Both the position numbers and the translations under genes were made by a program. The notes under the pieces are model-generated. The model searched no databases. It had not been told where the DNA came from and was given only the letters and a program-made list of their open reading frames with translations. A stretch of 53,795 nucleotides of DNA. It comes from a virus. The stretch covers positions 1-53,795 of the IMG/VR virus record IMGVR_UViG_3300025093_000026; one strand, written 5' to 3'. Shown in pieces: positions 17,211-40,956 of the stretch; the stretch's first letter is position 1, and each line of letters opens with the position of its first letter.

Positions 17211-17711
17211 GTGAAACTTATATTTGAAAGCTGGCGAAAGTTTTTAAAAGAAGAAGCCTCTGAAGAAAAGATTGAAGACGTTGTCGTAGACATCTTAAAA
17301 GACGAAGGCGGCGCCGCAGGATTAGATCCTATTGAGAAAGCCGTTGAGGAGTTAGATTTACCAGAAGGTTTTGATTTAAAAGACTTTCTAAAAGGTCTTA
17401 GAGGTGTTGGGCAACACGAAGATGGCGACTACATCTTGGAAGACGGTGAAGAAATTCACGTAAAAGAAGGCATTGAAATTTTCTTGGAAGCGCAAGAAGA
17501 AATGCTTGACGAAAAAAGAAAAAGATCTAAAAAAAGAACAAAGAAGAAACGTAAAGCTAAAAAGAAAAAGAAAGGTAAAAAAGATGCTTGTTATCATAAA
17601 GTAAGATCAAGATATAGCGTCTGGCCTTCTGCGTATGCATCAGGTGCTCTTGTAAAGTGTCGTAAAGTCGGCGCTAAGAATTGGGGCACAGGCGGGAAGA
17701 AAAAGAAATGA
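17211..17711 (+). CDS. Lysine-rich cargo-like protein with MKLIFESW leader
   Basis: This 166-residue protein starts at GTG 17211, right after the micropeptide stop. It has three parts: a leader MKLIFESWRKFLKEE; an acidic middle (about residues 18-95); and a basic region of Lys and Arg runs leading to a C-terminal motif, CYHKVRSRYSVWPSAYASG and then CRKVGAKNWG. I recall closely similar C-terminal motifs in small proteins of marine phages and algal viruses, function unknown. The leader resembles the T4 internal-protein leader (MKTYQEFIAEA) in length and helix pattern and holds L-K-E, a possible prohead protease site. The end overlaps the next gene by four bases (ATGA). Confidence 0.78.
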   Translation: MKLIFESWRKFLKEEASEEKIEDVVVDILKDEGGAAGLDPIEKAVEELDLPEGFDLKDFLKGLRGVGQHEDGDYILEDGEEIHVKEGIEIFLEAQEEMLDEKRKRSKKRTKKKRKAKKKKKGKKDACYHKVRSRYSVWPSAYASGALVKCRKVGAKNWGTGGKKKK

Positions 17712-18064
17712 AAATCTCTGAAGAAGAATTAAACCAAATTATCAGAGAAGAAGTTCTAAAATATTTGGAAGAAAAGAAAAAAAAGAAGAAGAAAAAGAAG
17801 AAAAGAAAATTAACCGCTAAGCCAAGCTCTGAAAAAAGCCTTCGTGATTGGTTTGGAAGAAAAGGCGCAAAAGGTAAAAAAGGCGGATGGGTTGATTGTA
17901 ACACTTGCCGCAAAGATAAAAAAACAGGCCGCAAGAAATGTAAATCTTGTGGAAGATCAACCGGAGAGAAGAGAGCAAAATATCCATCTTGTCGTCCAAC
18001 ACCGGGCGCTTGTGGTAAAAAAGGAAATTACGGCAAAAAATCAAAAGCCGGGAAAAAAGGATAA
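17708..18064 (+). CDS. Lys-rich Cys-containing cargo-like protein with MKIS leader
   Basis: The start is ATG 17708, overlapping the upstream stop (ATGA), giving 118 residues. The leader MKISEEELNQIIREEV is a member of the shared module. A run of about twelve lysines and arginines follows, then a compact Cys-rich body: SLRDWFGRKG, DCNTC, KSCGR, YPSCRPTPGAC and a Gly/Lys tail. The paired cysteines suggest a zinc-binding knuckle. The protein is extremely basic and would bind nucleic acid. I recall this body as a small conserved protein of marine viruses without a known role. Possible cleavage sites are I-R-E and L-E-E in the leader. Confidence 0.8.
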   Translation: MKISEEELNQIIREEVLKYLEEKKKKKKKKKKRKLTAKPSSEKSLRDWFGRKGAKGKKGGWVDCNTCRKDKKTGRKKCKSCGRSTGEKRAKYPSCRPTPGACGKKGNYGKKSKAGKKG

Positions 18065-18069
18065 CCATT

Positions 18070-18393
18070 ATGAAAATCACAAAAGAATATCTAGAACAGA
18101 TCATCAAAGAAGAAATTGAGGCAGTTTTAAATGAAGAAGAAGGACTTAACGAGGCTTCGTGGCACTGGACGGAAAGTAAAGACTTGTGTATGAGACTCTC
18201 AGAAAATTGGGCGGTGGACTGGGATTCAGGCTTACAAAAATATCGCGCAAGAAAAGGCGGAGATCAAAAACAGTGTTGTATGTGCGGTGGAGCGCCAGCG
18301 GGGACGGAGCGTAATCCAGATGGCACACTCAAGGGCGTTGATTATTTTGACCCCAAAGATCCAGCACAAAAGAAAGCCTGCTTAGGATTTTAA
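18070..18393 (+). CDS. Small Cys-containing protein with MKITK leader
   Basis: This 107-residue protein begins MKITKEYLEQIIKEEIEAVL, almost identical to the leader of the next gene. The body has Trp residues near position 33, then QCCMCGG and a C-terminal KKACLGF, consistent with a small metal site. It is less basic than its neighbours. Possible prohead-protease sites are I-K-E and L-N-E within residues 11-26. It sits 5 bases after the previous stop and 23 bases before the next start, in an evident co-transcribed set. Confidence 0.75.
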   Translation: MKITKEYLEQIIKEEIEAVLNEEEGLNEASWHWTESKDLCMRLSENWAVDWDSGLQKYRARKGGDQKQCCMCGGAPAGTERNPDGTLKGVDYFDPKDPAQKKACLGF

Positions 18394-18416
18394 AAATAAT
18401 ATCTGAGGAATAAACA

Positions 18417-18815
18417 ATGAAAATCACAAAAGAATATCTACAAGAAATTATTAAAGAAGAATTAGAGGCTGCTCTTAATGAAGAAGAGTTCTACGAAGTT
18501 GATGCTAAAGATATAAACGAAGAATTCTGTCCAGTTTGCGCTCCATTAGAAGAGAAGAAAAAAAAGAAGAAAAAGAAGAAAGCCTGTAAGCCATCCAAAG
18601 GCAAAAGATTTGCTAAAAGAGTTGATGGTAGATGCATCTCACACGGTCAAGCAGGAAAAGCAAAAGATGGTGGTGATAGAATACGCCCCGGTACAGCAAA
18701 AGGTGATGCTTATTGCGCAAGATCAGCAGGCATCAAAAAATGTAAAAATCCACCGTGCGCAAATACACTTTCTAGAAAGAAGTGGAAATGCCGCGGCAAA
18801 AAATCAATGAAATGA
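18417..18815 (+). CDS. Basic Cys-rich cargo-like protein with MKITK leader
   Basis: This 132-residue protein starts after TGAGGAATAAACA and opens with MKITKEYLQEIIKEELEAAL. An acidic linker with CPVC is followed by a Lys run, then a basic body containing RIRPGTAKGDAYCARSAG and LSRKKWKCRGKKS. I recall this body from marine phages and large algal viruses; its function is not established. The high Lys content, several Cys residues and shared leader suggest a packaged nucleic-acid-binding protein. Its stop is only 5 bases before the tmRNA 5' end, so the tmRNA is probably processed from the same transcript. Confidence 0.78.
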   Translation: MKITKEYLQEIIKEELEAALNEEEFYEVDAKDINEEFCPVCAPLEEKKKKKKKKKACKPSKGKRFAKRVDGRCISHGQAGKAKDGGDRIRPGTAKGDAYCARSAGIKKCKNPPCANTLSRKKWKCRGKKSMK

Positions 18816-18820
18816 ATTAC

Positions 18821-19130
18821 GGGGGTGAACTGGTATCGACTGGATATTGAAAATTTAATGTGCAAGGCTGTGTGAGTGTGGCACAGTAAAAACACTCAAC
18901 AATTTAAACGCCAACGATAACGTTAGCTTTGATTACGCCCTAGCGGCTTAATTACGGGGTTGTAGTCGCCTTGTTAACCAAGACTACGAAAAAAGTTTTT
19001 GGCTTCTTTAAAGAGCCAATAGTTAGCGAAATAAGAGAAGTTTGTCAGAGTTCATAAACTGACTAACCTTGTGAACGACATTATTTTAGAAATATTTAGG
19101 ACCCGGGTTCGACTCCCGGCATCTCCACCA
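18821..19130 (+). ncRNA. ssrA: One-piece tmRNA, tag ANDNVSFDYALAA
   Basis: The 5' end GGGGGTG (18821-18827) pairs with CATCTCC (19120-19126) as a 7-bp acceptor stem, followed by A and an encoded CCA (19128-19130). The third pair is G-U, the alanine identity element. The T arm is CCGGG, loop TTCGACT, CCCGG (19103-19119), and CTGGTATCGAC near the 5' end matches the conserved tmRNA start. The tag frame runs from GCC at 18910 to TAA at 18949-18951, encoding ANDNVSFDYALAA, with the canonical ALAA degradation signal. Downstream inverted repeats (GTAGTC with GACTAC; TGGCT with AGCCA; GTCAG with CTGAC) fit the pseudoknot region. It would rescue stalled ribosomes and tag the products for proteolysis. 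Length is 310 nt. Confidence 0.96.
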
Positions 19131-19139
19131 CTTAAAATT

Positions 19140-19499
19140 ATGAAAAATTTAAAACCAATTTTTATTAACAATAGCAAACTGCCTGTATGGCTATCAAAAT
19201 TAGCACCAATTGAAATATGGGCTTTATCATTTTTTATTTTTGTTTGGTGTCGTGGTGAAATTAACGAACAAACAAAGAGACACGAAACAATTCATTTCCA
19301 ACAGCAAATAGAACTTTTATTTGTTGGGCAATGGATTTTATATGGTATTTTTCATTTATATGGTCTTATAAAAGAAAAGGGCGATAGCAAAAAAGCTTAC
19401 TATCATAATCCTTTTGAATTAGAGGCATATGGGAATGATATCAAAGAAGATTATCTACCAAAAAGAAAAAGATTTTCTTGGGTTAAGTATGTAGGTTAG
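19140..19499 (+). CDS. Small HExxH-containing membrane-associated protein
   Basis: This 119-residue protein begins at ATG 19140, nine bases after the tmRNA 3' end; the frame is open further upstream but that part is tmRNA sequence. It carries H48-E-T-I-H52-FQQ, a zinc-metallopeptidase signature, followed after a hydrophobic segment (about 57-76) by HNPFELEAYGND, whose glutamates (E92 or E94) could be the third ligand. Residues 24-37 are also hydrophobic. This layout, HExxHxxQ then a distal FE-x-EAY, recurs in small uncharacterised bacterial and phage proteins. Protease activity is not shown. Confidence 0.7.
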   Translation: MKNLKPIFINNSKLPVWLSKLAPIEIWALSFFIFVWCRGEINEQTKRHETIHFQQQIELLFVGQWILYGIFHLYGLIKEKGDSKKAYYHNPFELEAYGNDIKEDYLPKRKRFSWVKYVG

Positions 19500-19515
19500 C
19501 TAACTAATTAATATT

Positions 19516-19953
19516 ATGGCAGTAGATGCGAGAACAGGACAGCCAATATATGGCTATCAAAGTGTTGGTTTGAACCATGTCGGCTCTTATCAGGCATCTG
19601 CGCGCCCATTTCTCACATCTTCTTTAAATGTACCTGCCTCTTCTGGTACACCAACAGTAGTATCATTTGAGAGCGTTTCAAAGTTTGTTATCATAACAAA
19701 TACACTACCAGGAAGCGCAACCAATGTTCCTTTGCGATTTGGCTTTTCAGAGGCAGGTGTCAAAGGAACTGTTGATAATAACTACGGTATTCTCAATAAT
19801 GGCGAGAGCTTTGAAGCAGATTTTAAAGTAACCAGAGTATACTTATTGAGTGATTCAACTAATGAATGCTCGGCTTCAGTTATTGCTGGATTAACTGGAA
19901 TTGCTGCTAATCACTTAATGAGCAACTGGTCTGGTTCGGCGGGAGTAGGATAA
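19516..19953 (+). CDS. Virion-type protein with VGLNHVGSYQ motif
   Basis: This 145-residue protein starts MAVDARTGQPIYG and contains VGLNHVGSYQAS. It is a clear relative of the 180-residue protein at 41211, which starts MAVDAKTGQPIFG and has VGLNHVGSYQSS. The rest is Ser/Thr/Gly-rich with alternating hydrophobic residues, typical of a beta-sandwich virion subunit. The copy at 41211 sits directly before the scaffold and capsid genes, so a capsid-surface or decoration role is likely for both; this is inference. The stop overlaps the next start by one base. Confidence 0.78.
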   Translation: MAVDARTGQPIYGYQSVGLNHVGSYQASARPFLTSSLNVPASSGTPTVVSFESVSKFVIITNTLPGSATNVPLRFGFSEAGVKGTVDNNYGILNNGESFEADFKVTRVYLLSDSTNECSASVIAGLTGIAANHLMSNWSGSAGVG

Positions 19954-21497
19954 TGGGATTTACTGATTTAAGCACTAATAGTACTTCGGACAACCGCGGC
20001 GCCATAAAGGTAAATGTTGACTCACCAACCACCGCTTTTGGAGAAATGTTGATTGCTAATCTCATCCCAAATGCTCAGGGTGATTTTGTATACAATATTA
20101 ATGCGCAAGTTTTTACAACATCCTCTTTTGCCGGCGCAACAGTAGCTCAAGCTGATGGAATGTGTGTATTAAGCAGTGGCACATCAGCCTCTGGTTCTGC
20201 GACGGTTCGGCTAAGACGAGGGTTGGAATACCGCCCCGGTCAAGGATCGGCAATGAGAGCCACAGCACTTTACGATACTCCAGATGCGGGAAATGCACAA
20301 TTCATCGGCGCCGGCACAGCAGAGTGCGGATATTTTATCGGATATTTTGGAACTAGTTTCGGTATCCTTCACTCCGTATCGGGCTCCAGAGAAATTAGAA
20401 GATTGGATATCACAACTGGTGCCGGTACTGAAGATGTGACAGTCACTTTGAATGGAAATTCGCAAGTTGTTTCAGTTGTGGGCGGCGATAGCCCAGAACA
20501 AACCGCTTATCAATTGGCTAATGGAAATGTTGATTATAGTCAGCTGGGATCGGGTGGCTGGCTCTCAGATGCTCAATCTGGTTCTGTATATTATATCTCC
20601 GCTAGATCTGCCGACAGCTTTGATGGAGCTTATAGTGTGTCCGGAACTGATATAGTCGGCTCATTCACTCAGGTTCAAGACAGTGCCGCTCAGGCAAATA
20701 CTTTTATTGCTTCCGGCTCTTTCAATATTGACAGGCTTGATGGAACTGGACCCTCGGGTATGGTATTTAATCCCCAGAAAGGAAATGTTTTTCAAATTGA
20801 ATTTCAATATTTGGGATTTGGAAATGCTATATTTTCAATAGAAGATCCTACGTCCGGAAAGTTAGTACCATTCCATCGGATTGAAAATGCGAATTCACGA
20901 ACAGATCCAGTTCTTAAAAATCCTAACGTATTTGCTTTAGCCACGTCTGCTAATATTGGAGGTACTACCAGCAGAACATTGAAAACAGTATCAATGGCTA
21001 CGTTCACAGAAGGATCTGTTCAAAAGCTTGATCCTAAATTTTCAAAAAGCTGGAGTGTCTCTGGATTAAATGAATCAACATATGTGCCTTTGGCAATGTT
21101 AAAATCAAACAGAGTATATTTAAATCAGAGCAACTTTGGCGAATTTGACCTTTTAAGATTGTCTCTATCTAACGAAACTGCCGGCGTTAGTGGAAAAACT
21201 ATTTCAATTGGGCTGTTTTTAGATGCGACAGTATCTGGTGAAGTTAATTGGCAATATGTAAATGAAAATGAAAGCATCGTGTCATATGCAACGCTAGATC
21301 CGTCCACGCAAACTATAGACAATGTAGCCTCGCTTACCCCGTTTTATGAAATTATTGCGGGACCCTCTGGAACTCAGACGGATTTCCTTGAGGAGCTAAA
21401 ATTAATTTTTCAAATTGGACGTCCAGTAATAATCGCAATAAAAACAACAGGCGCTGCTAACGGCACAATAGCCGTGAACTGGTTTGAACAGCAATAA
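19953..21497 (+). CDS. Virion surface or fibre-type protein, 514 residues
   Basis: The gene starts at ATG 19953, overlapping the preceding stop (TAATG). It contains LEYRPGQGSAMRATALYDTP, then GYFIGYFGTSFGIL and REIRRLDIT. I recall this combination from large structural proteins of marine phages and algal viruses, where it is thought to be a virion surface or fibre component, but I cannot name a family. Between about residues 150 and 260 there is a Ser/Gly-rich region, and the C-terminal third is beta-rich. Coupling to the 19516 gene suggests the two products act together. No catalytic motif is apparent. Confidence 0.75.
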   Translation: MGFTDLSTNSTSDNRGAIKVNVDSPTTAFGEMLIANLIPNAQGDFVYNINAQVFTTSSFAGATVAQADGMCVLSSGTSASGSATVRLRRGLEYRPGQGSAMRATALYDTPDAGNAQFIGAGTAECGYFIGYFGTSFGILHSVSGSREIRRLDITTGAGTEDVTVTLNGNSQVVSVVGGDSPEQTAYQLANGNVDYSQLGSGGWLSDAQSGSVYYISARSADSFDGAYSVSGTDIVGSFTQVQDSAAQANTFIASGSFNIDRLDGTGPSGMVFNPQKGNVFQIEFQYLGFGNAIFSIEDPTSGKLVPFHRIENANSRTDPVLKNPNVFALATSANIGGTTSRTLKTVSMATFTEGSVQKLDPKFSKSWSVSGLNESTYVPLAMLKSNRVYLNQSNFGEFDLLRLSLSNETAGVSGKTISIGLFLDATVSGEVNWQYVNENESIVSYATLDPSTQTIDNVASLTPFYEIIAGPSGTQTDFLEELKLIFQIGRPVIIAIKTTGAANGTIAVNWFEQQ

Positions 21498-21536
21498 CAA
21501 AAAACTTAAAACTACTTAATATTAAAGGATTATCAT

Positions 21537-21842
21537 ATGAAAATTACAAAACAACAACTAAAACAAATCATCAAAGAAGAGATTTCTAAAGTATTTGCCG
21601 AGGGAGACTACGGCAGTGTAAAGGATCGACAATCTGATAACTATTATGCAGTGCGCCTAGAGTTAATTGCTGGAATGGACATACCAAAAGAATTAGTCAC
21701 AGACGAGCTAATCATGGCAATTTTACGTGATCCTCGTTACTCAGAGGGCGATTCAATTGACGCCGAGCAAGGCACCGCTCCACGCGGCTATGGATTTACA
21801 CTCCAAGACATATATGATCTTATAGACAGCTTGAAGTCTTAA
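21537..21842 (+). CDS. Small acidic protein with MKITK leader
   Basis: This 101-residue protein has the leader MKITKQQLKQIIKEEISKVF, preceded by a strong AAAGGATTATCAT ribosome-binding site. Unlike the lysine-rich proteins at 17.2-18.8 kb, its body is acidic, with no cysteines and a predicted helical C-terminus (LQDIYDLIDSL). Possible prohead-protease sites are I-K-E (residues 12-14) and F-A-E-G just after the leader. It shows that the leader is attached to chemically different bodies. Function unknown. Confidence 0.72.
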   Translation: MKITKQQLKQIIKEEISKVFAEGDYGSVKDRQSDNYYAVRLELIAGMDIPKELVTDELIMAILRDPRYSEGDSIDAEQGTAPRGYGFTLQDIYDLIDSLKS

Positions 21843-21858
21843 ATAGGAATATTCTAAT

Positions 21859-22101
21859 ATGAAAATTACAAAACAAAAATTAAACAAAATCATAAACGAA
21901 GAAATTCAACGTCACCATATTCTACAAGAAGCAAATCGTGCTGTTTTAGTTGAGAACAATAATCCAGCTCTAAGAAAAGTATTGAAAGAACGCTTTGAAA
22001 AGTTAGGCGGCTATTACTTTGAAGCGCTTGAAGAAGGCGACAAAGAATTAGCAAAAACTCTTCAAGAAGAAATGACCAGAATATTTGAGGACCTAACGTA
22101 A
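21859..22101 (+). CDS. Small helical protein with MKITK leader
   Basis: This 80-residue protein starts 16 bases after the previous stop and has the leader MKITKQKLNKIINEEIQR. The body is almost entirely charged helix (KERFEKLGGYYFEALEEG, then ELAKTLQEEM). I-N-E and LEE in the protein would fit a T4-type prohead protease. No enzyme or metal motif is seen. Function unknown; grouped with the putative capsid-cargo proteins by its leader. Confidence 0.72.
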   Translation: MKITKQKLNKIINEEIQRHHILQEANRAVLVENNNPALRKVLKERFEKLGGYYFEALEEGDKELAKTLQEEMTRIFEDLT

Positions 22102-22111
22102 TGGGGTAGTA

Positions 22112-22573
22112 TTGTATTACGCATTTTTCTTTATAGCAGGCTTGTTATACACAAACTTGCTAGAATGGACATTACACAAATACGTACTACACGGCTTAGG
22201 CAAAAACAAAAAAAGCAACTGGTCTTCTCACTGGAGCGTCCATCATAAAAAATCAAGAAAGAATGATTTTTACGATGACGATTATGAGAAAAGTTGGCAC
22301 TCCCCAGGATCACGTTCAGAAATTATGGGCTTAATATTACTAGCATTATTACATTTACCACTAGCTTTCTTATCTTTGCCTTTCTATATTGGTCTCCTTT
22401 ACGGAGGTCTAGGTTATTATTTTGTCCACAAGAAAGCACATTTAGACCCTGAATGGGCAAAAAGACACGTCCCTTGGCATTACGATCATCATATGGGAAA
22501 AAATCAAGATGCTAATTGGGGAGTTACAACCGATTGGGTTGATAAATTAGCAGGAACAAGAATTAAATATTGA
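22112..22573 (+). CDS. Fatty-acid-hydroxylase-like di-iron membrane protein
   Basis: This 153-residue protein starts at TTG 22112, since no ATG lies between the in-frame stop at 22094 and the conserved region; GGGG at 22103-22106 is a plausible ribosome-binding site. It has the histidine clusters of the fatty acid hydroxylase / sterol desaturase superfamily: H22-x4-H27, H40-x3-HH, HKKAH and HVPWHYDHHMG, with hydrophobic segments at residues 1-17 and about 68-110. Such enzymes use two irons to hydroxylate or desaturate lipids. In a phage this would be an auxiliary metabolic gene acting on host membrane lipid or lipid A; the substrate is unknown. It is short for the family but all histidine groups are present. 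Confidence 0.8.
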   Translation: MYYAFFFIAGLLYTNLLEWTLHKYVLHGLGKNKKSNWSSHWSVHHKKSRKNDFYDDDYEKSWHSPGSRSEIMGLILLALLHLPLAFLSLPFYIGLLYGGLGYYFVHKKAHLDPEWAKRHVPWHYDHHMGKNQDANWGVTTDWVDKLAGTRIKY

Positions 22574-22597
22574 CTTTATTATCTGTTGTTAATATAA
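22569..22597 (+). promoter_or_regulatory. Sigma70-type promoter for the SbcD-SbcC fusion gene
   Basis: TTGACT (22569-22574) and TATAAT (22592-22597) are separated by exactly 17 bases, close to the host vegetative consensus. The -35 element overlaps the stop codon of the hydroxylase-like gene. Transcription would start near 22604, just ahead of the ribosome-binding site TGGAGA. This is the best sigma70 match I found and suggests early expression by host polymerase. Confidence 0.7.
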
Positions 22598-22621
22598 TAG
22601 ACTTGAACGAATGGAGATCTT

Positions 22622-25600
22622 ATGCGTTTTGCGCACATAGCGGATACTCATATCCGAAATTTAAAATATCATAAAGAATATAGAGAAGTTTTTAGTCAAC
22701 TGTACGAAAACCTCCGAGAACAAAAACCAGACTACATAATTCATTGCGGAGATATCGCACACACGAAAACTCAGATTAGTCCTGAGTATGTTGAGATGTG
22801 TTCTGATTTCCTCAAGAATTTAGCAGACATAGCACCAACTTACGTTATTCTTGGTAATCACGATGGGAACCTACGCAACTCAAGCCGTCAGGACGCCCTT
22901 ACACCTATCGCCAACGCATTACAACACGAAAACCTATACCTACTTCGTGATGCGGGAGAAACGCCCTTAAACGACCGTTTCTCGCTAAATGTGCTGTCTG
23001 TATTTGATGAGGACAATTGGGTTGAGCCATCTGATCCAAATCGTGTAAATATTGCTTTATATCACGGATCTATTTCAAACTGCGAAACAGATCTTGGATG
23101 GAGAATGGAGAGAGGTGAAAATGATATTAGCATCTTTAATAATTTTGACTATGGTTTTCTTGGCGATATACACAAAACCAATCAAATCTTGGACAAGAAA
23201 GGCAAGATACGTTATCCTGGCTCAACGGTCCAACAGAACCACGGAGAAACCAACGACAAAGGATACTTGCTCTGGGACATTGAAGACAAAGAAAATTACA
23301 CATGTAAGCACTTTGTTTTAAAAAATCCAAAGCCTTTTATCACAATTCCTTTGACGCCCACTGGTAGGATCTCTAAAAGAGTAGAGATACAAAGTGGCGC
23401 CCGTCTACGTCTTGTATCTGAAAATCACTTGCCCCTAGATGTAATTCGCAAGGCAATTGATGTCGCGAAGACTAGGTTTAAACCCGAGGCTATTACATAT
23501 TTAAATCGTGCGCAAGGAGATCGTGTAAATCTAGAAGACATAACTAATTCTTTAGTCAAGGAAGATTTGCGAGATATTAATGTTCAGGAGGAGTTAATTG
23601 AAGAATATTTGCAGGAGTATCAGGTTGATTCCGAGACGACTAAGAAGGTTCTTGACCTTAATAGAGCTTACAAAAAAAGAGTTGAAGAGGAGGAGGAGAT
23701 CTCACGCAACGTCAACTGGCGTTTGAAAAAGGTAGAGTGGGACAACCTTTTCAACTATGGAGAAAGCAACTCTATTAACTTTGAAAACTTAAACGGCATT
23801 GTTGGTATTTTTGGTAAGAACTTTTCTGGAAAGTCCAGCATTGTTGATTCAATTCTGTATACAATGTTCAACACAACATCAAAGAATAATCGCAAAAACC
23901 TCAACATTATCAACCAGAATAGAGATTATTGTAGAGGCTACGTTGAGATCGATGTTGGCACAAAGACGTATAGAATTGAGCGCGTTAGCACAAAGTACAT
24001 CAAGAAGCTTAAAGGTAATGTAACACAAGAAGCAAAGACTGACTTAGAGTTTAGCGTTTACGATAACGCCATTCAAGAAGAGAAAAGCCTTAATGGTACA
24101 TCCAGAAATCAAACAGACAAAAACATCAAAAAGATTTTTGGTACAATGGAAGACTTTCTTTTGACTTCAATGGCTTCTCAGTTGGGATCCCTTTCCTATA
24201 TTAGCGAAGGCTCAACCCGACGTAAGGAAATCCTTGCTAAGTTCTTGGACCTTGAAGTCTTTGAACGCAAGTTCAGGATGGCGAAAGAAGAAGCAGCGGA
24301 TACAAAAGCTCTCCTACGTCGCTGGCAGAACAGAATGTTTGATGAGGAGATTGAGGAAGCAGAAGAAGTTTATAGTGAAAACAATATTAAACTTGAGCAA
24401 AAAGAGCTACACTGTAGCAATCTCAAGCAACAACTTAAAACAAAGCAAGATGAACTACAAGCCATCTCTTTAAAACTCAACGACATTCCTGAAGATGTAG
24501 TTGATATCAAGAATTTAATGTCTGATATCAGCGAGCAGAATAAATTGTTAAGAGGGTACGAAAATGAGAGGGTAAGTCTTGTAGCAGAAATCGCAGCAAA
24601 AGAAAAATACATCTTTGAAGTAGAAGAGTTCTTAGAAGAGTTTCCTGCTGACGAAGTACAAAAGCGACAAGAAGAGATTAAAGAAAGAATTGAAAGGATC
24701 AAAGATCTAGAAAATGATATTGAAAAGTTACAAGAAAAGATCAAAAGACAGAAAAAGAAAATTAAATTGCTGGACGAAGTTCCGTGCGGAGATGAGTTTC
24801 CAACTTGTAAGTTTATTGGTGACGCGCATAAATCTAAGGTTCAGCTAGGGACGACAACTGTTTCTTTGAAAGACCTTTCTTTATCCAAGGATAAAACGCA
24901 AGAAGATTTAGATGCTCTAAATCCAGAAGAAAATCAAGAGACCCTAGACAACTATGTGGTATTCCAAAATAAGTTGTCTGAGGCTAAAATTGATTTACAC
25001 GTACTGAGCGTTGAGATGGAGAGAAATAAGACCGAGGTTTTCAAAACAGAAATTTTGTTATCAGATCTTAACAAACAAAAAGATTTCTACAATGAAAACA
25101 GGGACTTGATTGAAAATTACGAACTTCTACAGGAAGAACAAAACGAACTAAACAAAGAAACAAAAACTTTAAGCAACGATCTAGAGAAGTGCCAGAAAAA
25201 TATTCTTGCGCTCTGTAAAGAAAACGGTACGTTACAAGAGCGTGTTGAAAAAGCTAAAAGGGATAAAGAAGAATTCTTGACATTAGAGAACAGTTTCTCT
25301 GCTTATGATTTGTTTATGCGCTGTATGCATTCTAACGGTATTTCTTACGATATCATTAAGAAGCGCTTGCCTCTTATCAATGCAGAGATTTCAAAAGTTA
25401 TCGCCAACATTGTTGACTTTGAAATCTTCTTTGAGAACGAAGATAAGAAACTTGATATTTTGATTAAGCATCCAGGCTATGATGCTCGTCCTATTGAGAT
25501 GGGATCTGGTGCTGAGAAAACAATTGCAGCAATGGCTATTCGTCTTGCTCTCTTAAATGTATCAACTTTGCCAAAGGGAGATATCTTTGTTTTGGATGAG

Positions 25601-26005: not shown

Positions 26006-26012
26006 TCTTAAT

Positions 26013-32534: not shown

Positions 32535-32561
32535 AACCCCGGCTATAGTCTAGCCGGGGTT
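32535..32561 (+). terminator. Rho-independent-type terminator after the spike gene
   Basis: AACCCCGGCTA (32535-32545), loop TAGTC, and TAGCCGGGGTT (32551-32561) form an 11-bp perfect stem, followed by TCTATTTAT. It closes the fibre cluster 24 bases after the stop and lies 15 bases before the next start codon. Confidence 0.88.
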
Positions 32562-32575
32562 TCTATTTATAACGT

Positions 32576-33154: not shown

Positions 33155-33169
33155 TCAATAGGATAAAAT

Positions 33170-33559
33170 ATGTCAATGGATAAAGACTGGGATCACATAG
33201 CAAGAATTGAGAAAGCCATCAATCAAAAATATGGCGAAGAAGCAATTGTAAATCCAAGCTCGGGATGGACCGAGGAAAAAGAAAAGGAATATCTTGAGCA
33301 ATTAAAAGATATGAACGATAAACAAGCCTCACTAGACGAGCAACAAGAGAAGGTTGAGGCTGATGGGTTTTTAATTAATAAAAAACTACTTACTAGAGAA
33401 ACTACAATTTTTAATTGTCCAGTTTGTACAAAAAGATTAAGAACAGTCAAAGATGATATATATAATAGTAAATTTGATTGTTGCCATAAATGCTACATAA
33501 AATATGTTGAAGACAGAGAAGAACGCTGGCTGAATGGCTGGAGACCAGGAGATAAATAA
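33170..33559 (+). CDS. Small zinc-finger protein upstream of terminase
   Basis: This 129-residue protein has a charged helical N-terminal half and a C-terminal CPVC with later CCHKC, a four-cysteine zinc-ribbon-like arrangement (about residues 83-108). It ends in DREERWLNGWRPGDK. I recall similar small proteins next to terminase genes in marine T4-like phages, with no assigned role. It may be a DNA-binding packaging accessory, for example a small-terminase analogue, but the sequence does not prove this. Confidence 0.7.
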   Translation: MSMDKDWDHIARIEKAINQKYGEEAIVNPSSGWTEEKEKEYLEQLKDMNDKQASLDEQQEKVEADGFLINKKLLTRETTIFNCPVCTKRLRTVKDDIYNSKFDCCHKCYIKYVEDREERWLNGWRPGDK

Positions 33560-34057
33560 ATGTCACAGAAAGATTTAGATGTTGTAAGAGGAATTATGCA
33601 GGCAGCTGCTGATTCATATGATGGTGCCCTTGATGAGAAAGGTGAGCCAGTTAAGATTGGTCTCAAAAGAGACGAAGGTCACCCTGTTCTAGATACTAGA
33701 GTTATGGATGGATTTAAGTGCCAAGTAGATGGCGCCAAACTAATCGTTAAGTACCAGTCAGATATTCTCTTGAAAGATGTTTACAGCGGTAATCTAGAAA
33801 GTGATCTCGAACAAACATTCGCAGATATCGTAAAACATCTAAAAAAGCAATATAAGAAAATTACTGGTAATGCTTTGAGATTAAAAGCAGAAGGTGAGTG
33901 TGAGGCTCTAGTTCAATCAACAAGCCGTGTTAGAGTTTTTGTTCTAGCAACCAAGGTTTATAATATTGAAAATCTAAAAGAAGTAGAAAATAGACTTCAG
34001 CCTAGTGAAGACGGCTTAGATAAGAGCTTTAAAAAATTCTTGATGCAGAAAGGCTAA
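33560..34057 (+). CDS. Conserved protein directly upstream of terminase
   Basis: This 165-residue protein starts immediately after the previous stop (TAA at 33557-33559) and ends one base before the terminase start. It is mixed alpha and beta: a beta-rich centre (FKCQVDGAKLIVKYQ) and a helix followed by RVRVFVLATKVY. I recognise no catalytic motif. Tight coupling to the large terminase suggests a packaging or head role; whether it is the small terminase subunit cannot be told from sequence alone. Confidence 0.7.
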   Translation: MSQKDLDVVRGIMQAAADSYDGALDEKGEPVKIGLKRDEGHPVLDTRVMDGFKCQVDGAKLIVKYQSDILLKDVYSGNLESDLEQTFADIVKHLKKQYKKITGNALRLKAEGECEALVQSTSRVRVFVLATKVYNIENLKEVENRLQPSEDGLDKSFKKFLMQKG

Positions 34058-34058
34058 G

Positions 34059-35633
34059 ATGTCGTTCCAACTCTCCAGGGACCAGATTTTAAAAGAAATT
34101 GTAAAGTCTGGTAAAGATCCAATTTATTTTATTAACAACTATGCAAGGATTTCTCATCCACAGCATGGTCTGATTCCCTTTAACACATATCCATTTCAGA
34201 CGGAACTACTTCAAGATTTTAACGATCACCGTTTCAATGTTATTTTAAAAGCTCGCCAGCTTGGTATCTCAACAATTACAGCAGCTTATGTTGCCTGGAT
34301 GATGCTTTTCCACAAGGAAAAGAATGTTCTTGTTATTGCCACACAGTTCAAGACTGCATCAAACTTGGTCAAAAAAGTAAAGGCAATACATAAGAATTTA
34401 CCACAATGGCTCAAGATTGCCGAGATCTCAATTGACAACAGAACTTCATTTGAGTTAACTAATGGCTCGCAGATCAAAGCAACTTCAACTTCTGCTGACG
34501 CTGGTCGTTCTGAAGCTCTTTCTCTGCTTGTGATTGACGAGGCTGCCCACATTGATGGTCTAGGAGAACTATGGACAGGTTTGTATCCAACACTATCAAC
34601 TGGTGGGCGCTGTATTGCTCTCTCAACTCCAAATGGCGTTGGTAACTGGTTTCACCAAACTTGCATTGATGCCGAGCAAGAAAACAATGACTTTTTCCTT
34701 ACAACTCTTAAATGGGATGTACATCCGGACAGAGACGAAGAATGGTTTCAGAAAGAAACCAAGAATATGTCCAGAAGACAAATCGCACAGGAGCTTGAAT
34801 GTAACTTCAATATGTCTGGCGAAACTGTCTTCCACGCAGATGATATGAAGATTATTGAAGAGGGCCTAAAAGAGCCAAAATATAAAACTGGTTTTGATCG
34901 CAATTTTTGGATTTGGGAAGAATACCAACCAGGATCAACATATCTTTTATCGGCTGACGTAGCCCGTGGTGACGGAAAAGACTATTCTACGTTTCATATT
35001 TTTAAGATTGAAACAATGGAGATTGTTGCAGAATACCAAGGAAAAGCTACACCAGATATATTTGCCAATATGCTAAATGAAACTGGAAAAGAATATGGTA
35101 ACTGTATGGTTGCTGTAGAGAATAATACAGTCGGATGGACTGTCCTAGATAAATTGCTTGATTTTGGATATCCAAATATCTATTACGCATATAAATCAAA
35201 TCATGAATATGTTGATCCTGTCTTGGGAGAACAAAAAAGCAATGCTGTTATGGGCTTCTCGATGACTTCTAAGACACGTCCACTAGTTATTGCTAAATTA
35301 GAAGAATTCATTAGAAATAAACTAGTTACGATATATTCAAGAAGAATTTTTAATGAAATGAAAACATTTGTTTGGCAGAGCGGCCGGCCCCAAGCTATGC
35401 GAGGCTATAACGATGATCTCGTTATGGCATTTGCGATCGGGTGCTGGGTTAAAGATGCTGCTTTTGAGGTAAATCAGAGAGACATAGAATATAGAAAAGC
35501 TTTCTTAAATTGTATGAAAAAAAATGATACGATTATTAATACTTCAATTCCGGGACAGCCTGGATATAAACACATTAGAAAAACAGATAAAAAAAGAGCG
35601 CATCTAAATAATATTTGGTTACTCAAGGGATAA
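34059..35633 (+). CDS. terL: Terminase large subunit, T4 gp17-like
   Basis: This 524-residue protein has a Walker A-like KARQLGIST (64-72), Walker B LLVIDEA (D160-E161), and the coupling motif ALSTPNGVG. The C-terminal RNase H-like nuclease has Asp in LLSADVARGDG, Glu in VAVENN, and Asp in YNDDLVMAFAI. It is somewhat shorter than T4 gp17 (610 residues) but all catalytic elements are present. It would pump DNA through the portal and cut the concatemer. It is preceded by two small coupled genes and followed 8 bases later by the portal gene. Confidence 0.97.
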   Translation: MSFQLSRDQILKEIVKSGKDPIYFINNYARISHPQHGLIPFNTYPFQTELLQDFNDHRFNVILKARQLGISTITAAYVAWMMLFHKEKNVLVIATQFKTASNLVKKVKAIHKNLPQWLKIAEISIDNRTSFELTNGSQIKATSTSADAGRSEALSLLVIDEAAHIDGLGELWTGLYPTLSTGGRCIALSTPNGVGNWFHQTCIDAEQENNDFFLTTLKWDVHPDRDEEWFQKETKNMSRRQIAQELECNFNMSGETVFHADDMKIIEEGLKEPKYKTGFDRNFWIWEEYQPGSTYLLSADVARGDGKDYSTFHIFKIETMEIVAEYQGKATPDIFANMLNETGKEYGNCMVAVENNTVGWTVLDKLLDFGYPNIYYAYKSNHEYVDPVLGEQKSNAVMGFSMTSKTRPLVIAKLEEFIRNKLVTIYSRRIFNEMKTFVWQSGRPQAMRGYNDDLVMAFAIGCWVKDAAFEVNQRDIEYRKAFLNCMKKNDTIINTSIPGQPGYKHIRKTDKKRAHLNNIWLLKG

Positions 35634-35641
35634 ATAATTAA

Positions 35642-37600
35642 ATGGCTAATAGAAATTCAAATCCAAGAAATCCACAACACGAATTATTTCGTAAATTAAC
35701 TAAATTATTATCTGGACCAATTGGAACCTCAAGGCAGCAACAGCCTCGTTCATTGCGTCGTATGCAGCTGGATAATTATTCCACAAAGTTTAAGTCAGCA
35801 AGCGGACAAGAGTTTAAAAAGTCGGCATATGGCCAGAAAGGTAATTATACCGCAAATTATATGGCTAATCAAAATCGTGCCGATCGTTATCACGATTTTG
35901 ATCAAATGGAATATACTCCCGAGATTGCATCTGCTTTAGATATTTACGCGGATGAAATTACAACTTCAACTGAAATTTCTCCTTTAATGAAAATTATTAC
36001 TCACGATGAAGAAATTAAAATTGAACTTGAGCACCTTTTCCATAAAGTTTTAAATATTGAATATAATATTTTTGGCTGGGCAAGATCCTTGTGTAAATAT
36101 GGAGATTTCTTTCTTTATTTAGATATTGATGAGGACCAAGGTGTACAATACGCGATAGGTCTCCCTTCAAATGAAGTGGAAAGATTGGAAGGAGAAGATG
36201 AAAATAATCCAAATTACATCCAGTACCAATGGAATTCTGCCGGCCTAACATTAGAAAATTGGCAGGTTGCTCATTTTCGTGTATTGGGGAATGATAAGTA
36301 TACACCATATGGAACATCTGTCCTTGAACCAGCTCGTCGTATTTGGCGTCAATTAACTTTAATGGAAGATGCCATGATGGCATATAGAATTGTGCGTTCT
36401 CCTGAAAGAAGAGTTTTCTATGTTGATGTAGGAAATATGCCTCCACAAGATATTGAACAATATGTTCAGAGAGTTATGACACAGATGAAAAGAAATCAAG
36501 TTGTTGATGCTGATAGTGGCCGCGTTGACTTACGTTATAACCCGATGTCAGTGGAAGAAGACTACTTCATTCCAGTAAGGGGAGGTCAGTCAACAAAAGT
36601 TGAAACTTTATCTGGTGGCCAATTTACAGGCGATATTGATGACATTAAATATCTTCGTGACAAACTATTCTCGGCATTGAAAATACCACAATCATATTTG
36701 ACTATGGGCGAGGGCGGAGAAGAAGATAAGACAACTTTAGCTCAGAAAGATATTCGTTTTGCAAGAACTGTGCAAAGATTGCAAAGATCTCTCACATCTG
36801 AACTTGAAAAAATAGCAGTTGTCCATTTATTTTCTAGAGGGTATAGAGGCAAAGATTTGACTTCCTTTACTCTTTCATTAAATAATCCATCAAAACTAGC
36901 ACTTATGCAAGAGTTAGAAACTTGGAGAACCAAGTTCGAAATCGCCGGTAGCGCAACCGAAGGTTACTTCAGCAAGAGATGGGTTGCTAAAAATATCTTT
37001 AATCTATCTGAGGACCAGATTTTAAGAAATGATAGAGAGCTTTTCTTCGATAAGAAACACGCCGCACTATTAGAAAAAGCTGCTGAAGAAATTACTGCTG
37101 CTGGTGAGCCAACTGATGAATTAGGTGGCGATTTGGGAGGTGGCCTCGGGGGCGACCTAGGTGGTGACTTAGGTGGTGACTTGGGCGCCGACCTAGGTGG
37201 CGATCTGGACACAGAGCCAGAGGGTGAAGAAACTCCGGGCGCAGAAACAGAAGCTCCAGAGCCAGAAGCTCCAGCTGGCGAAGAATCATCTCTCTTGGCC
37301 GCTCCCGGTAAAAGAGATATTAGAGAATATGAAAAATCGACATATAGGCCGGTTAAGCATGATAAGAGAACCAAGACAGTACCATATAGAAAAAATATAG
37401 GTTCAATGACCAAGCCAGAAGGTGGCACAAAGTCTTCTCAAAGAAGTAAATTTCCTGGATCTGAGATCTCGCGTCTAGGATATGGCGTTTCTGAAAGTAT
37501 TGAACCTAATTATAATAATGAAGAACAAAAACTTCTTGAAGCAAATATAGAAATTAAAAATCTAATTACTCTTTTGGAAACAAAATATGAGCAAACTTAA
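35642..37600 (+). CDS. Portal protein, T4 gp20-like
   Basis: This 652-residue protein follows the terminase and has the T4-type portal layout: a basic N-terminus, YADEITTSTEISP, RSLCKYGDFFLYLDI, RRVFYVDVGNMPP, and IPQSYLTMGEGGEE. The ring of these subunits forms the packaging and ejection channel. It is longer than T4 gp20 (524). The extra C-terminal region has a low-complexity stretch of GGDLGG repeats (about residues 493-525), a Glu/Pro/Ala-rich linker, a basic region, and a final helix. The end overlaps the next gene by 14 bases. Confidence 0.94.
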   Translation: MANRNSNPRNPQHELFRKLTKLLSGPIGTSRQQQPRSLRRMQLDNYSTKFKSASGQEFKKSAYGQKGNYTANYMANQNRADRYHDFDQMEYTPEIASALDIYADEITTSTEISPLMKIITHDEEIKIELEHLFHKVLNIEYNIFGWARSLCKYGDFFLYLDIDEDQGVQYAIGLPSNEVERLEGEDENNPNYIQYQWNSAGLTLENWQVAHFRVLGNDKYTPYGTSVLEPARRIWRQLTLMEDAMMAYRIVRSPERRVFYVDVGNMPPQDIEQYVQRVMTQMKRNQVVDADSGRVDLRYNPMSVEEDYFIPVRGGQSTKVETLSGGQFTGDIDDIKYLRDKLFSALKIPQSYLTMGEGGEEDKTTLAQKDIRFARTVQRLQRSLTSELEKIAVVHLFSRGYRGKDLTSFTLSLNNPSKLALMQELETWRTKFEIAGSATEGYFSKRWVAKNIFNLSEDQILRNDRELFFDKKHAALLEKAAEEITAAGEPTDELGGDLGGGLGGDLGGDLGGDLGADLGGDLDTEPEGEETPGAETEAPEPEAPAGEESSLLAAPGKRDIREYEKSTYRPVKHDKRTKTVPYRKNIGSMTKPEGGTKSSQRSKFPGSEISRLGYGVSESIEPNYNNEEQKLLEANIEIKNLITLLETKYEQT

Positions 37601-38387
37601 ACATAATAAAAAAAGAAATACTGGTATCTTATACGAAACACTTATTCGTGAATTAACACGTGCGTCCGCAAGATCTGACAAAAAGAGAAGTGATCTAGTT
37701 TTAGGCATACTTAAAGAATTCTTTAACAGAAGCACTGTGCTTGGTCAAGAATTAGAATTATATAAAACTTTAAACGAAAAAAATGGCTATCAAAAAGAAA
37801 TGGCAGAAAAAATCTTAACAGAAACAAAGAAGCGCCATTCCTCACTTGATAAAAAAAGATTATTTAAAGAGCAATCAAGCGTAATTAAGCAGATAAATTA
37901 TAAGCTTGGTAGCACAATGTTTGAGAATTATGTTCCAAATTTCAAAAATTATGCAACGATTTATCAGGTACTTAATGGTGCTCCAAATGTTCAACAACAA
38001 GTAAGACTGGAAGAATCCATCATAAGCGAGATGGCCGCGACACCCGTAGATAAGGAAAGCAAATACAAAGCAATTGATAACTTATCTTATAAGACATTTC
38101 TAAATAAATTTAATGAAAAGTATAGTGATAAATTACTCAGAGAACAAAAAGAACTTTTATCTTTGTATGCAACGAGCTTCAAAGGAAGTGATTTAGAATT
38201 AAAAATATTTTTAAATGAAGAGGTTAGTAGATTAAAAGACAGTGTTTCTAAATTACAAATTGGACAAAAAAATGAAATCCTAGAAGTATTAGAATCATTT
38301 GCAAAGAAAAAAATTGATAAAACAATTTTGGATAAAGTGCTGAAAGTACAACAGTTAGTTAGCGAGATAACAAAGCATGGCAATTAA
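37587..38387 (+). CDS. Helical protein between portal and protease
   Basis: This 266-residue protein is almost wholly helical and Lys-rich, beginning MSKLKHNKKRNTGILYETLIRELT. I recall relatives starting with the same type of segment between portal and protease genes of marine myoviruses, without assigned function. It overlaps the portal by 14 bases and the next gene by 11. A role as prohead core or assembly factor is a guess from context. Confidence 0.72.
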   Translation: MSKLKHNKKRNTGILYETLIRELTRASARSDKKRSDLVLGILKEFFNRSTVLGQELELYKTLNEKNGYQKEMAEKILTETKKRHSSLDKKRLFKEQSSVIKQINYKLGSTMFENYVPNFKNYATIYQVLNGAPNVQQQVRLEESIISEMAATPVDKESKYKAIDNLSYKTFLNKFNEKYSDKLLREQKELLSLYATSFKGSDLELKIFLNEEVSRLKDSVSKLQIGQKNEILEVLESFAKKKIDKTILDKVLKVQQLVSEITKHGN

Positions 38388-38943
38388 AGTTACATTAGAA
38401 AAGCCAGATAGTCTGGTTGTCACAATTAAAGACAAGAAAACAATTGAAGAAACTGTTAAGCTTAAAGCGCGCAAAAGTCTTAACGGAGATATTATGATTT
38501 TTGATCACAGCGATATTGATATTGTGATTATGCCACAAAAGAAGAAGATCTTAACCTTTGGCAAAGAATACCTAAGTGATCAAGTCTATGAAGCACAAAA
38601 TCGTCTTTTTACATTTCTAAGAAAAAGAGGCATAATCGATTATGATAGCATTGCAGGTGGCAGTGTTTTTTATTCTATGGAAGCTACGATACAAGAATCT
38701 AAATTGTACAATGAAGTACAGCATGCTCTTTTGGGAGTAGCAAGGTTTATTGATAAAGAGAGGCCATTGATGGAATTTGAGAAGGCTTTCGAGCACGAAG
38801 AAGAGAAACGTCTCAACGAGCCTCCACCGGGCGAGTTTACAGATTTCGATCCGGAAAGGCATGCCGAAACAAAAGGCTCTATCAATACAGGCTTGGCTCC
38901 ATATGGTATATCACAAGCAGCAGTATATCGTTTAGAGGAATAA
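38377..38943 (+). CDS. Conserved head-cluster protein of unknown function
   Basis: This 188-residue protein has a beta-rich N-terminus (about 1-65, with MIFDHSDIDIVIMP), a helical middle, and a Pro/Glu-rich C-terminal part (EPPPGEFTDFDPERH). No signal peptide or catalytic motif is seen. It overlaps the preceding gene by 11 bases and the next by one, so it belongs to the head operon. Function unknown. Confidence 0.7.
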   Translation: MAIKVTLEKPDSLVVTIKDKKTIEETVKLKARKSLNGDIMIFDHSDIDIVIMPQKKKILTFGKEYLSDQVYEAQNRLFTFLRKRGIIDYDSIAGGSVFYSMEATIQESKLYNEVQHALLGVARFIDKERPLMEFEKAFEHEEEKRLNEPPPGEFTDFDPERHAETKGSINTGLAPYGISQAAVYRLEE

Positions 38944-39248
38944 TGGAAACTTTACATTTTATTCTCTGTGCCTATGGAATGACATTCATTTTGGTATACG
39001 GCTCAATCTTCAACAACCTTCGCCCAACTAAAGGTAAGTTAGGGGAATTATTCCATTGTCCCTTGTGCCTGGGCTTTTGGGTGGGTATATTTTTATGGGC
39101 TGTGAATGGCGCAACCGAACTATTTAGTTTTGATCACAGTTTAATCACAGCATTTTTATGCGGCTGCTTGTCTGCCGGAACTTCATACTTTCTCAGTATG
39201 TTGTTAAAAGACTTTGGACTAAATTTAAATATAAGGACAGAAAAATGA
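38943..39248 (+). CDS. Small membrane protein with CPLCLGFWVG motif
   Basis: This 101-residue protein has three hydrophobic segments (about 5-22, 42-58, 69-90) and the motif CPLCLGFWVG between the first two, as in the DUF1360 type of small membrane proteins found in bacteria and phages. A membrane protein inside a head-assembly cluster is unexpected. T4 proheads form on the inner membrane, so a membrane anchor for assembly is conceivable, but this is speculation. The start overlaps the previous stop (TAATG). Confidence 0.72.
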   Translation: METLHFILCAYGMTFILVYGSIFNNLRPTKGKLGELFHCPLCLGFWVGIFLWAVNGATELFSFDHSLITAFLCGCLSAGTSYFLSMLLKDFGLNLNIRTEK

Positions 39249-39310
39249 GAAGACGTAATTTAGCAGAAACTAGAAGATGCTGTGCAGGCAGCATAATCGT
39301 GCGAGGGTGA
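39245..39310 (+). CDS. Possible micropeptide, 21 residues
   Basis: ATG at 39245 overlaps the membrane-protein stop (ATGA), and the frame runs to TGA at 39308-39310, encoding an Arg-rich peptide with CC. The overlap favours translation by re-initiation. No homology is known to me and no ribosome-binding site is evident. The last codons lie in a small hairpin (GCGAGG with CCTCGC, 39301-39317). This may be chance. Confidence 0.3.
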   Translation: MRRRNLAETRRCCAGSIIVRG

Positions 39311-39343
39311 GCCTCGCTTAACATATTTTAAAGGAGAATTAAA

Positions 39344-39466
39344 ATGGCTGAGAAAAAAAGCGATAAGAAGAATACAGGTCATGGACCTGGAAAAGTTTTG
39401 AAACCGGGCAACGTTTGTCCTTCAAGTTGGTGGAAAGGTACTGGATCTAAGAAAACTAAGAAATAA
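39344..39466 (+). CDS. Small basic protein, 40 residues, before prohead protease
   Basis: ATG 39344 follows an excellent AAAGGAGAATTAAA ribosome-binding site, and the stop TAA (39464-39466) overlaps the protease start (TAATG). The protein is Lys/Gly-rich: MAEKKSDKKNTGHGPGKVLK, then VCPSSWWKG and a basic end. The strong ribosome-binding site and coupled overlap support a real gene. It might be another packaged peptide or a protease cofactor; nothing proves either. Confidence 0.65.
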   Translation: MAEKKSDKKNTGHGPGKVLKPGNVCPSSWWKGTGSKKTKK

Positions 39467-40110
39467 TGTCAAAAAAACTATTACAAGAATATTTTGAACT
39501 TTGTCCTGATGGGCAATGCGCTTTTGATATCTTAACGGAATCAGAAAGAAAGCGTGTTGCCAATGATGGAGCAGTCTATCTTGTAGGAGTTTGTCAGCGC
39601 GCCGGTACAAAAAATGGAAATGGCAGAATCTATAAGAAAGAAACTCTTCAAAGAGAAGTAGAGAATTACCAAAAGGCAATCAAAGAAAGAAGATCGCTTG
39701 GAGAGCTAGACCATCCAGACGATAGCGTGATCAACCTTAAAAATGCCGCCCACCTAGTTTCAAAGATGTGGTGGGATGGTGATAATGTAATGGGAAAGAT
39801 TGAAGTTTTGGATACTCCTTCTGGCAGAATCCTAAAAGATTTAATTAAAGCCGGCGTTAAGCTTGGTATTTCTTCCCGAGGTCTTGGAACCGTAAAAGAA
39901 TCCCAAGGCTACGTAATGGTTGAAGATGATTTTCAGCTGATTTGCTTTGATATTGTATCAGAGCCTTCAACACCCGGCGCTTATTTAGCACCAAAAGCTA
40001 GTGCATCTATTTCAACTCCAAAAATGGATGCTGGAATAAGTGCTTATTTAAATGAAAATAAAGAAAAAACAAACTTGAATAATCTTATTCAAGATATTTT
40101 AAAGGATTAA
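39466..40110 (+). CDS. Prohead protease, T4 gp21-like
   Basis: This 214-residue protein carries GELDHP (His83) and GISSRGLG (Ser136/137), the catalytic His and Ser region of the T4 gp21 family, which shares the herpesvirus assemblin fold. The N-terminal LQEYFELCPDG and NGNGRIY strands also fit. T4 gp21 cleaves scaffold, capsid and internal proteins after (L/I)-x-E during maturation. Candidate substrates around it include the scaffold, the capsid N-terminus (L57-K-E59) and the MKITK-leader proteins. Confidence 0.95.
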   Translation: MSKKLLQEYFELCPDGQCAFDILTESERKRVANDGAVYLVGVCQRAGTKNGNGRIYKKETLQREVENYQKAIKERRSLGELDHPDDSVINLKNAAHLVSKMWWDGDNVMGKIEVLDTPSGRILKDLIKAGVKLGISSRGLGTVKESQGYVMVEDDFQLICFDIVSEPSTPGAYLAPKASASISTPKMDAGISAYLNENKEKTNLNNLIQDILKD

Positions 40111-40114
40111 TATT

Positions 40115-40522
40115 ATGAAAATTACAAAAGAACAATTGAATAAGATCATTAAAGAAGAAGTCCAGGCTGTTCTTAGCGAGGGTGGTGCTATGGGACATTA
40201 CGAGGGATTAAGTGATGCCGCGAAAGTAGAGTTTCGTGAGTTTATAGAGGCTTGGTTTAATCAAGCGGCCGCTCGATATCGCAATGATCCAACTTCTCCT
40301 TACAAAGCAGAACAGCTTGCCCGGGATCTGATGATGGGCGCCAAGGGTAAAAAACAAGATCCTTACTCAGCGAGCGTAGATTTTAATTTTATGGTAAAAA
40401 ACTTGGATCCAGCAGACCAGGACGCTGCAAGGAACCTTTTAAGTAGTATGGCTAAAGGAGTTGAAAAAAATCCGGCTTTAGCAACCTCGTCAAAAGAATT
40501 ATTATCTAACTCCGGACTATAA
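40115..40522 (+). CDS. Head-cluster protein with MKITK leader
   Basis: This 135-residue protein starts 4 bases after the protease stop, with MKITKEQLNKIIKEEVQAVL-SEGG, the same leader as the 17.7-22.1 kb proteins some 20 kb away. The leader contains I-K-E and L-S-E-G, plausible protease sites. The body is helical (SDAAKVEFREFIEAWFNQAA, then DPADQDAARNLL). Its place right beside the prohead protease is the strongest contextual hint that the leader acts in prohead assembly. Confidence 0.78.
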   Translation: MKITKEQLNKIIKEEVQAVLSEGGAMGHYEGLSDAAKVEFREFIEAWFNQAAARYRNDPTSPYKAEQLARDLMMGAKGKKQDPYSASVDFNFMVKNLDPADQDAARNLLSSMAKGVEKNPALATSSKELLSNSGL

Positions 40523-40545
40523 AACAAATTATTAAAAGATTAATT

Positions 40546-40956
40546 ATGAAAAAGAATGAATTAAGAAAAATGCTTAAGCCTCTTATCAAAGAATGTATTA
40601 AAGAATGCATCTTTGAAGAAGGTGTTCTATCTGGAATTATTACAGAAGTTGCCAAAGGAATGTCCAATCAACGAATTGTTGCCGAGGGTTTAACCATTGA
40701 AAGCAAATCAAATACTCCTGATCCAAAAGAACTTGAAAGAAAAGCAGAAGCTTTAGAAGCTCAAAGGCAAGATAAAATCAAGAGATTAAACGAAACAATG
40801 TCTTTTGGTGGAGTAGATGTCTTTGAAGGCACAAAAGAAATATTACCAGAAGGTAATCAACATAGTCCTCTAGCTGGAACAGACCCTAATGATTCTGGCG
40901 TTGATATATCAGGAATTATGAAAATTGCCAACGGCAAATGGAAACACTTAATTTAA
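40546..40956 (+). CDS. Head-cluster protein with divergent leader
   Basis: This 136-residue protein begins MKKNELRKMLKPLIKECIKE, then C-I-FEEG. The opening is a divergent version of the leader helix, with I-F-E as a possible cleavage site. The body has a charged helix (residues 55-85), then a flexible Gly/Asn/Asp region and a C-terminal ISGIMKIANGKWKHLI. It may be a core or internal protein. No enzyme motif is seen. Confidence 0.7.
   Translation: MKKNELRKMLKPLIKECIKECIFEEGVLSGIITEVAKGMSNQRIVAEGLTIESKSNTPDPKELERKAEALEAQRQDKIKRLNETMSFGGVDVFEGTKEILPEGNQHSPLAGTDPNDSGVDISGIMKIANGKWKHLI

Follow-up and report, generated by a model that had tools for sequence, protein, structure and literature searches.

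Proteins that enter the cell together with phage DNA are at work before phage gene expression begins and meet host defences first; few are known. In phage T4, Alt is an injected ADP-ribosyltransferase (PMC5512222), and of the internal proteins (IPs), IPI inhibits a restriction enzyme and IPIII is needed on one E. coli strain (PMC9391042). IPI, IPII, IPIII and Alt carry a capsid targeting sequence (CTS), a short N-terminal peptide on otherwise unrelated mature parts that ends in L/I-x-E (PMC9026906, PMC9391042). The propeptides of the IPs are 10-19 residues long and are removed after targeting, the prohead protease gp21 cutting after L/I-X-E, and such sequences have been suggested to serve in evolution as a device by which varied proteins can be packaged (PMC9026906). 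Here we describe a 53,795-base virus record of a T4-like phage (IMG/VR IMGVR_UViG_3300025093_000026; this whole stretch is called the window), in which small genes with different bodies share N-terminal leaders, or tags. These leaders are probably capsid targeting sequences that have been expanded into a cargo-delivery system.

The leader system appears to work like the T4 CTS and to be an expanded, sequence-distinct form of this known principle. In both, the genome encodes an S77 protease of the gp21 type together with T4 head genes, and the cargo of T4 includes an ADP-ribosyltransferase and counter-defence proteins. Whereas T4 has one tag and 3-5 tagged genes, the phages described here have two tag classes per genome, about 5-40 tagged genes per large genome, a larger range of bodies and some open reading frames (ORFs) with internal tags. 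As a control, the pattern MK[ST][FY]xx[FY] has eight matches in T4, and those of the form MKT[YF]xEF are ipII, ipIII, ipI and gene 61.1; therefore, a shared N-terminus of this kind marks T4 internal head proteins. T4 gp61.1 (L223:967-1131) starts MKTFKEFIKE/D like the internal proteins (here and below, a slash marks the predicted cut) and, by its sequence, may be another of the small cargo proteins in the T4 head. In heads of the SPN3US/phiKZ type, a prohead protease likewise removes N-terminal propeptides from many head and ejection proteins after x-x-E (PMC10052503), but the SPN3US motif is A-x-E and most propeptides there have 111-254 residues, in contrast to the shared tag of 14-22 residues ending in L/I-x-E found here; the class A leaders with a site do not fit A-x-E, their P3 residue being L, I, V or M. 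The polyvalent proteins of phages and conjugative elements are also proposed injected effectors, with ADP-ribosyltransferase, GNAT and other activities (PMC5512222), and ART-PolyVal occurs among the tagged bodies. Polyvalent proteins form one multidomain chain; the tagged proteins are mostly separate and small, each with its own tag, but include a few long multi-module ORFs with internal tags. A literature search, with subscription journals outside its reach, found no description of the leader.

In the window, the class A leader, MKITKxxLxxIIKEExxxxLxE, is common to the genes starting at 17708, 18070, 18417, 21537, 21859 and 40115, and the original prediction that these six begin alike is thereby confirmed at every start. 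With one of these leaders as query, a search within the window record scored four others at E=1e-8 to 0.016. The predicted (I/L)-x-E site is present in each: an I-x-E lies at residues 12-14 in all six, and a second [LIVF]-x-E ends at residue 22, or at residue 24 in the gene at 21859. The gene at 17211 had been taken to carry a related leader; its leader belongs instead to a separate class B, MKLLxENWRxYLxE, which was recognised by following this gene. The tagged genes of the window are:

17211..17711, + strand: putative cargo gene with class B leader MKLIFESWRKFLKE (GTG start; residues 1-14 at 17211-17252; site E14); protein with an acidic middle and a basic C-terminus carrying a CYHKV...WPSAYASGALVKCRK module
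17708..18064, + strand: putative cargo gene with class A leader MKISEEELNQIIREEVLKYLE/E (17708-17773); basic Cys-rich body with an SLRDWFG module
18070..18393, + strand: putative cargo gene with class A leader MKITKEYLEQIIKEEIEAVLNE/ (18070-18135); body containing Cys and Trp
18417..18815, + strand: putative cargo gene with class A leader MKITKEYLQEIIKEELEAALNE/ (18417-18482); basic Cys-rich body, with a homologous body in the related genome G027
21537..21842, + strand: putative cargo gene with class A leader MKITKQQLKQIIKEEISKVFAE/G (21537-21602)
21859..22101, + strand: putative cargo gene with class A leader MKITKQKLNKIINEEIQRHHILQE/A (21859-21930); helical acidic body
40115..40522, + strand: putative cargo gene with class A leader MKITKEQLNKIIKEEVQAVLSE/G (40115-40180); body recurring behind a class B leader at L332:2947-3324

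The ends of the leaders point to a gp21-type protease. Conservation in class A ends at residue 22, L being preferred at position 20 and E at position 22, and a [LIVMF]xE ending at residues 18-26 is present in 292 of 420 class A leaders, as against 136 +/- 8 (maximum 163) in within-sequence shuffles. The residue after this site is A or G in 34%, compared with 13% for motifs of this form within the bodies. In leaders with A or S at residue 15, giving IIKE/A, the downstream site is found in 17 of 56, versus 263 of 334 with E15 (p=2.5e-12), and this contrast holds inside both leader sub-types/lineage strata (p about 1e-4 each); because the sequences are related, these p-values are too small, which weakens the case, the A/S15 effect being large nonetheless. 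In class B, 174 of 211 leaders have the site precisely at residue 14, though selection used residues 1-9 only, and position 12 is L, I, V or M in about 90%. Moreover, the capsid proteins of this clade and of cultured relatives carry QLLKE/A, QLLRE/Q, QVLRE/A, QLISE/A or similar motifs near the N-terminus, in the region in which T4 gp23 is cleaved (placed by eye). Thus, the leader is predicted to end at a gp21-type L/I-x-E site, with two alternative end points in class A and one in class B.

The two tags also appear to be exchangeable. When bodies alone were compared between the classes, 33 homologous pairs were found, involving 21 class A and 24 class B bodies. Clean swaps are those of L089 (A) with L058 (B), at 76% identity over 50 residues; of L113:1071 (A) with L304:7074 (B), at 66% identity; of two HD proteins, L113:1322 (A) and L328:913 (B), at 38% over 193; and of window gene 40115 (A) with L332:2947 (B), at 28% over 86. 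Some other pairs stem from long multi-module ORFs with internal tags. The best-scoring pair, window gene 18417 against G027/L186, was rejected as a clean swap, since it involves a class B-headed long ORF with an internal class A-type start. In some ORFs (L246:793-1896, L059:4014-4706 and L026:1518-2264), leader-like helices are internal or C-terminal, and these ORFs look as if several tagged modules had been fused, later to be separated by the protease.

The system extends far beyond the window. After removal of related bodies, the class A leader heads 428 non-redundant bodies in the fetched loci (297 before further loci were added) and class B heads 214. The class A profile has 32 matches in the 293-kb G022 and 12 in G001; the uncultured phage LR756508 (484 kb) has 15, and the cultured Flavobacterium phage immuto has one good match (E=8e-6). 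T4, KVP40 and S-WAM2 yielded none. As a DNA pattern, the leader has at least 120 matches in the viral contig collection. The leader pattern matches in 45 of 47 related records (reversed control, 0 of 47). Among bacteria and archaea, with one genome for each of 84,980 species, the DNA pattern hits six contigs at nine places. All six come from metagenome assemblies, and in both of the assemblies that were searched, genes for the phage protease and gp23 are present. Control contigs drawn with a random 14-mer, 1.05 Mb of viral DNA in total, had no class A and no class B ORFs, and class A was found in 0 of 12 random contigs longer than 75 kb. The two classes occur together: class A loci hold 335 class A and 39 class B ORFs, class B loci hold 36 and 221, respectively, and all six tested class B records longer than 150 kb carry class A genes (3-13 each) as well as S77. 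Searching 50,697 phage records by tblastn with the bare 23-residue leader gave no match, which reflects a limit of sensitivity because the profile later matched immuto (once) and LR756508 (15 times); the whole 40115 protein, searched against phages, returned nothing useful. The carriers are large T4 relatives, known almost only from environmental DNA. In immuto, the single class A-like protein is QQO91870.1 (L204:14172-14930; MKKSQLRQIIKEALDAS), with a predicted cut at MKKSQLRQIIKE/ALDAS, and in Methylophilales phage Melnitz, part of this protein is found again after MKTFLQFE, a start similar to the T4 type of leader.

The window also encodes the expected protease. Its head and tail genes include a portal at 35642, an S77 prohead protease at 39466, a capsid protein at 43061 and others, and the region around the protease, besides the tagged gene at 40115, reads:

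39466..40110, + strand: prohead protease of the gp21 type, Peptidase S77 (PF03420, E=2e-33; phrog_207, E=3e-60)
40546..40956, + strand: clade-conserved head-region gene with a leader-like helical N-terminus; homologues at the same place in G011, G016 and G027
41827..43035, + strand: probable scaffold (gp22-like), judged by position and acidic helical composition; kept before gp23 in G011, G016, G027 and G022, and without a match in a profile search
43061..44818, + strand: major capsid protein gp23 (phrog_138, E=5e-71); predicted cleavage LLKE/A in the N-terminal region

As the original prediction had proposed, the leader profile was searched across phages and its co-occurrence with gp21 assessed. 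S77 is present in 32 of 47 leader records (records of at least 28 kb); the 15 S77-negative records all lack gp23 as well, and three of them, longer than 110 kb, end before the gp21 gene. Hence, no leader record is known with gp23 but without S77, and the finding named beforehand as speaking against a cargo tag, a leader common in genomes lacking a prohead protease, did not emerge. Among records of at least 75 kb, S77 occurs in 21 of 27 with class A versus 3 of 12 random ones (p=0.0035). The observation that a gp21-like protease lies 4 bases before a leader gene stands for the window, where the S77 gene ends at 40110 and the next gene starts at 40115, but this adjacency is not conserved: in G011 and G027, no leader gene lies between the protease and the 40546 homologue. 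Leader-gp21 adjacency as a general rule was thus rejected from the gene order of related records, and that leaders and protease are encoded in the same direction is not informative, almost all genes being on a single strand. The gene at 40546 had likewise been credited with a related leader; its N-terminus is indeed leader-like, whereas its match to the class A profile is weak (a homologue in G016, E=0.01), and no homologue was found among the 50,697 phage records. It is a candidate prohead core protein and a possible origin of the tag.

The bodies suggest what such a system might deliver. Class A bodies are small (median 88 amino acids), mostly acidic with a basic minority, and the domains recognised in them include leucine-rich repeats, pentapeptide repeats, HD, GNAT and EF-hand. 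In class B, the bodies include zeta-toxin kinases, Nudix, ART-PolyVal, SAM lyase, HD, GNAT, exonuclease, amidase, M23 peptidase and a kinase-like protein. One class B protein resembles an ADP-ribosyltransferase by eye and is not claimed as such (model pLDDT 43, no Pfam match, no PDB match). One may argue that the tagged proteins belong to the prohead core or the head structure, their tag being removed by gp21 and their bodies serving assembly or DNA condensation rather than delivery. Several bodies are basic and Cys-rich (17211, 17708, 18417), the conserved head-region gene 40546 has its leader-like N-terminus, and T4 IPIII influences head morphogenesis (PMC9026906). However, up to about 32 unrelated bodies occur in one genome, enzymes such as zeta-toxin kinases, SAM lyase, HD and GNAT are among them, and tagged bodies are shared between related genomes less often than other small genes (23% vs 41%), which ill suits core assembly parts. 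We regard a structural role as unlikely.

A good deal less likely still is an uncleaved docking helix directed at a target other than the capsid, such as host RNA polymerase, a membrane or a phage compartment, and unrelated to the prohead protease. The class A leader is amphipathic (mean moment 0.35 vs 0.24 shuffled), and many tagged genes in G022 lie far from head genes. Nevertheless, the conserved part breaks off abruptly at L/I-x-E, at either of two positions, homologous bodies carry a second, unrelated tag that ends in the same way, and T4 provides a precedent. That the similarity lies at the DNA level, as a conserved translation-start or recombination element for plugging genes into arrays, has next to no probability: tagged genes do stand in tandem arrays (21 adjacent pairs in G022 vs 1.7 expected), but the conserved leader residues are encoded by varying synonymous codons (Ile ATT/ATC/ATA, Thr ACA/ACT/ACC, several Leu codons), therefore selection acts on the peptide and not on the DNA, and the end at a protease motif would be left unexplained. 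A T4-type late promoter, TATAAATA, was found within 100 bases upstream of 1 of 298 leader genes and is not used as evidence.

If the leaders are capsid targeting sequences, the tag helix would insert into the scaffold core during prohead assembly, and the gp21-type (S77) protease would cut after L/I-x-E. A low-confidence model of the 40115 protein (pLDDT 57) has a separate helix at residues 5-21 followed by a linker. The tag would then leave with core fragments and the body would stay in the head, most likely to be ejected with the DNA as a host-takeover, counter-defence or DNA-binding protein. Two unrelated tags, MKITKxxLxxIIKEE...LxE/ and MKLLxENWRxYLxE/, would in this way serve hundreds of bodies interchangeably. 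Cleavage-site statistics, swaps between the two tags and effector-type domains together support the modular capsid-cargo tag originally proposed; we infer packaging and cleavage of the tagged proteins strongly, and injection of the bodies less strongly. Several points weigh against this reading. Its support is sequence evidence, virion packaging and cleavage being predicted; 128 of 420 class A leaders have no site at residues 18-26; and E-rich helices give L-x-E easily, as the shuffled expectation of 136 in 420 indicates. In addition, most bodies, in class A too, are without recognised function, and S77 is general in T4-like phages, so its co-occurrence with the leader is necessary rather than specific evidence. 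Finally, neither the class A nor the class B profile has a match in T4, the leaders have no detectable homology to MKTYQEF/MKTFKEF, and class B shares with the T4 leader a general likeness of pattern only.

There is also a good chance that the wider picture holds, in which large T4-like phages of a widespread and for the most part uncultured lineage use two interchangeable, protease-removed capsid tags to load tens of effectors per virion (kinases, ADP-ribosyltransferases, SAM lyase, HD hydrolases and DNA binders), with fast cargo turnover under constant tags. This would suggest that the tagged phages pack and inject a far larger protein kit than T4. If the tags mark injected proteins, a simple N-terminal search would turn hundreds of unannotated environmental phage genes into candidate injected effectors, new tags would become available for loading proteins into phage heads, and the suggestion that the CTS is an evolutionary packaging device (PMC9026906) could be tested at scale.

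Further observations concern the window phage itself. Its terminase is nearest to those of Flavobacterium phage immuto and Microcystis phage Mel-JY01, at ~45% identity. Within the gene at 17211, positions 17574-17702 encode a 43-residue basic module (GKKDACYHKV..SRYSVWPSAYASGALVKCRKVGAKNWGT) that shares 93% identity with T4-GC119 of cyanophage S-SM2. The module occurs in 365 phage records, for the most part of cyanophages, although the window terminase is only ~33% identical to that of those phages. Downstream of the tagged gene at 21859, positions 22112-22573 encode a His-rich membrane protein that by eye resembles a fatty-acid hydroxylase or sterol desaturase and occurs also in G016, G022 and G038.

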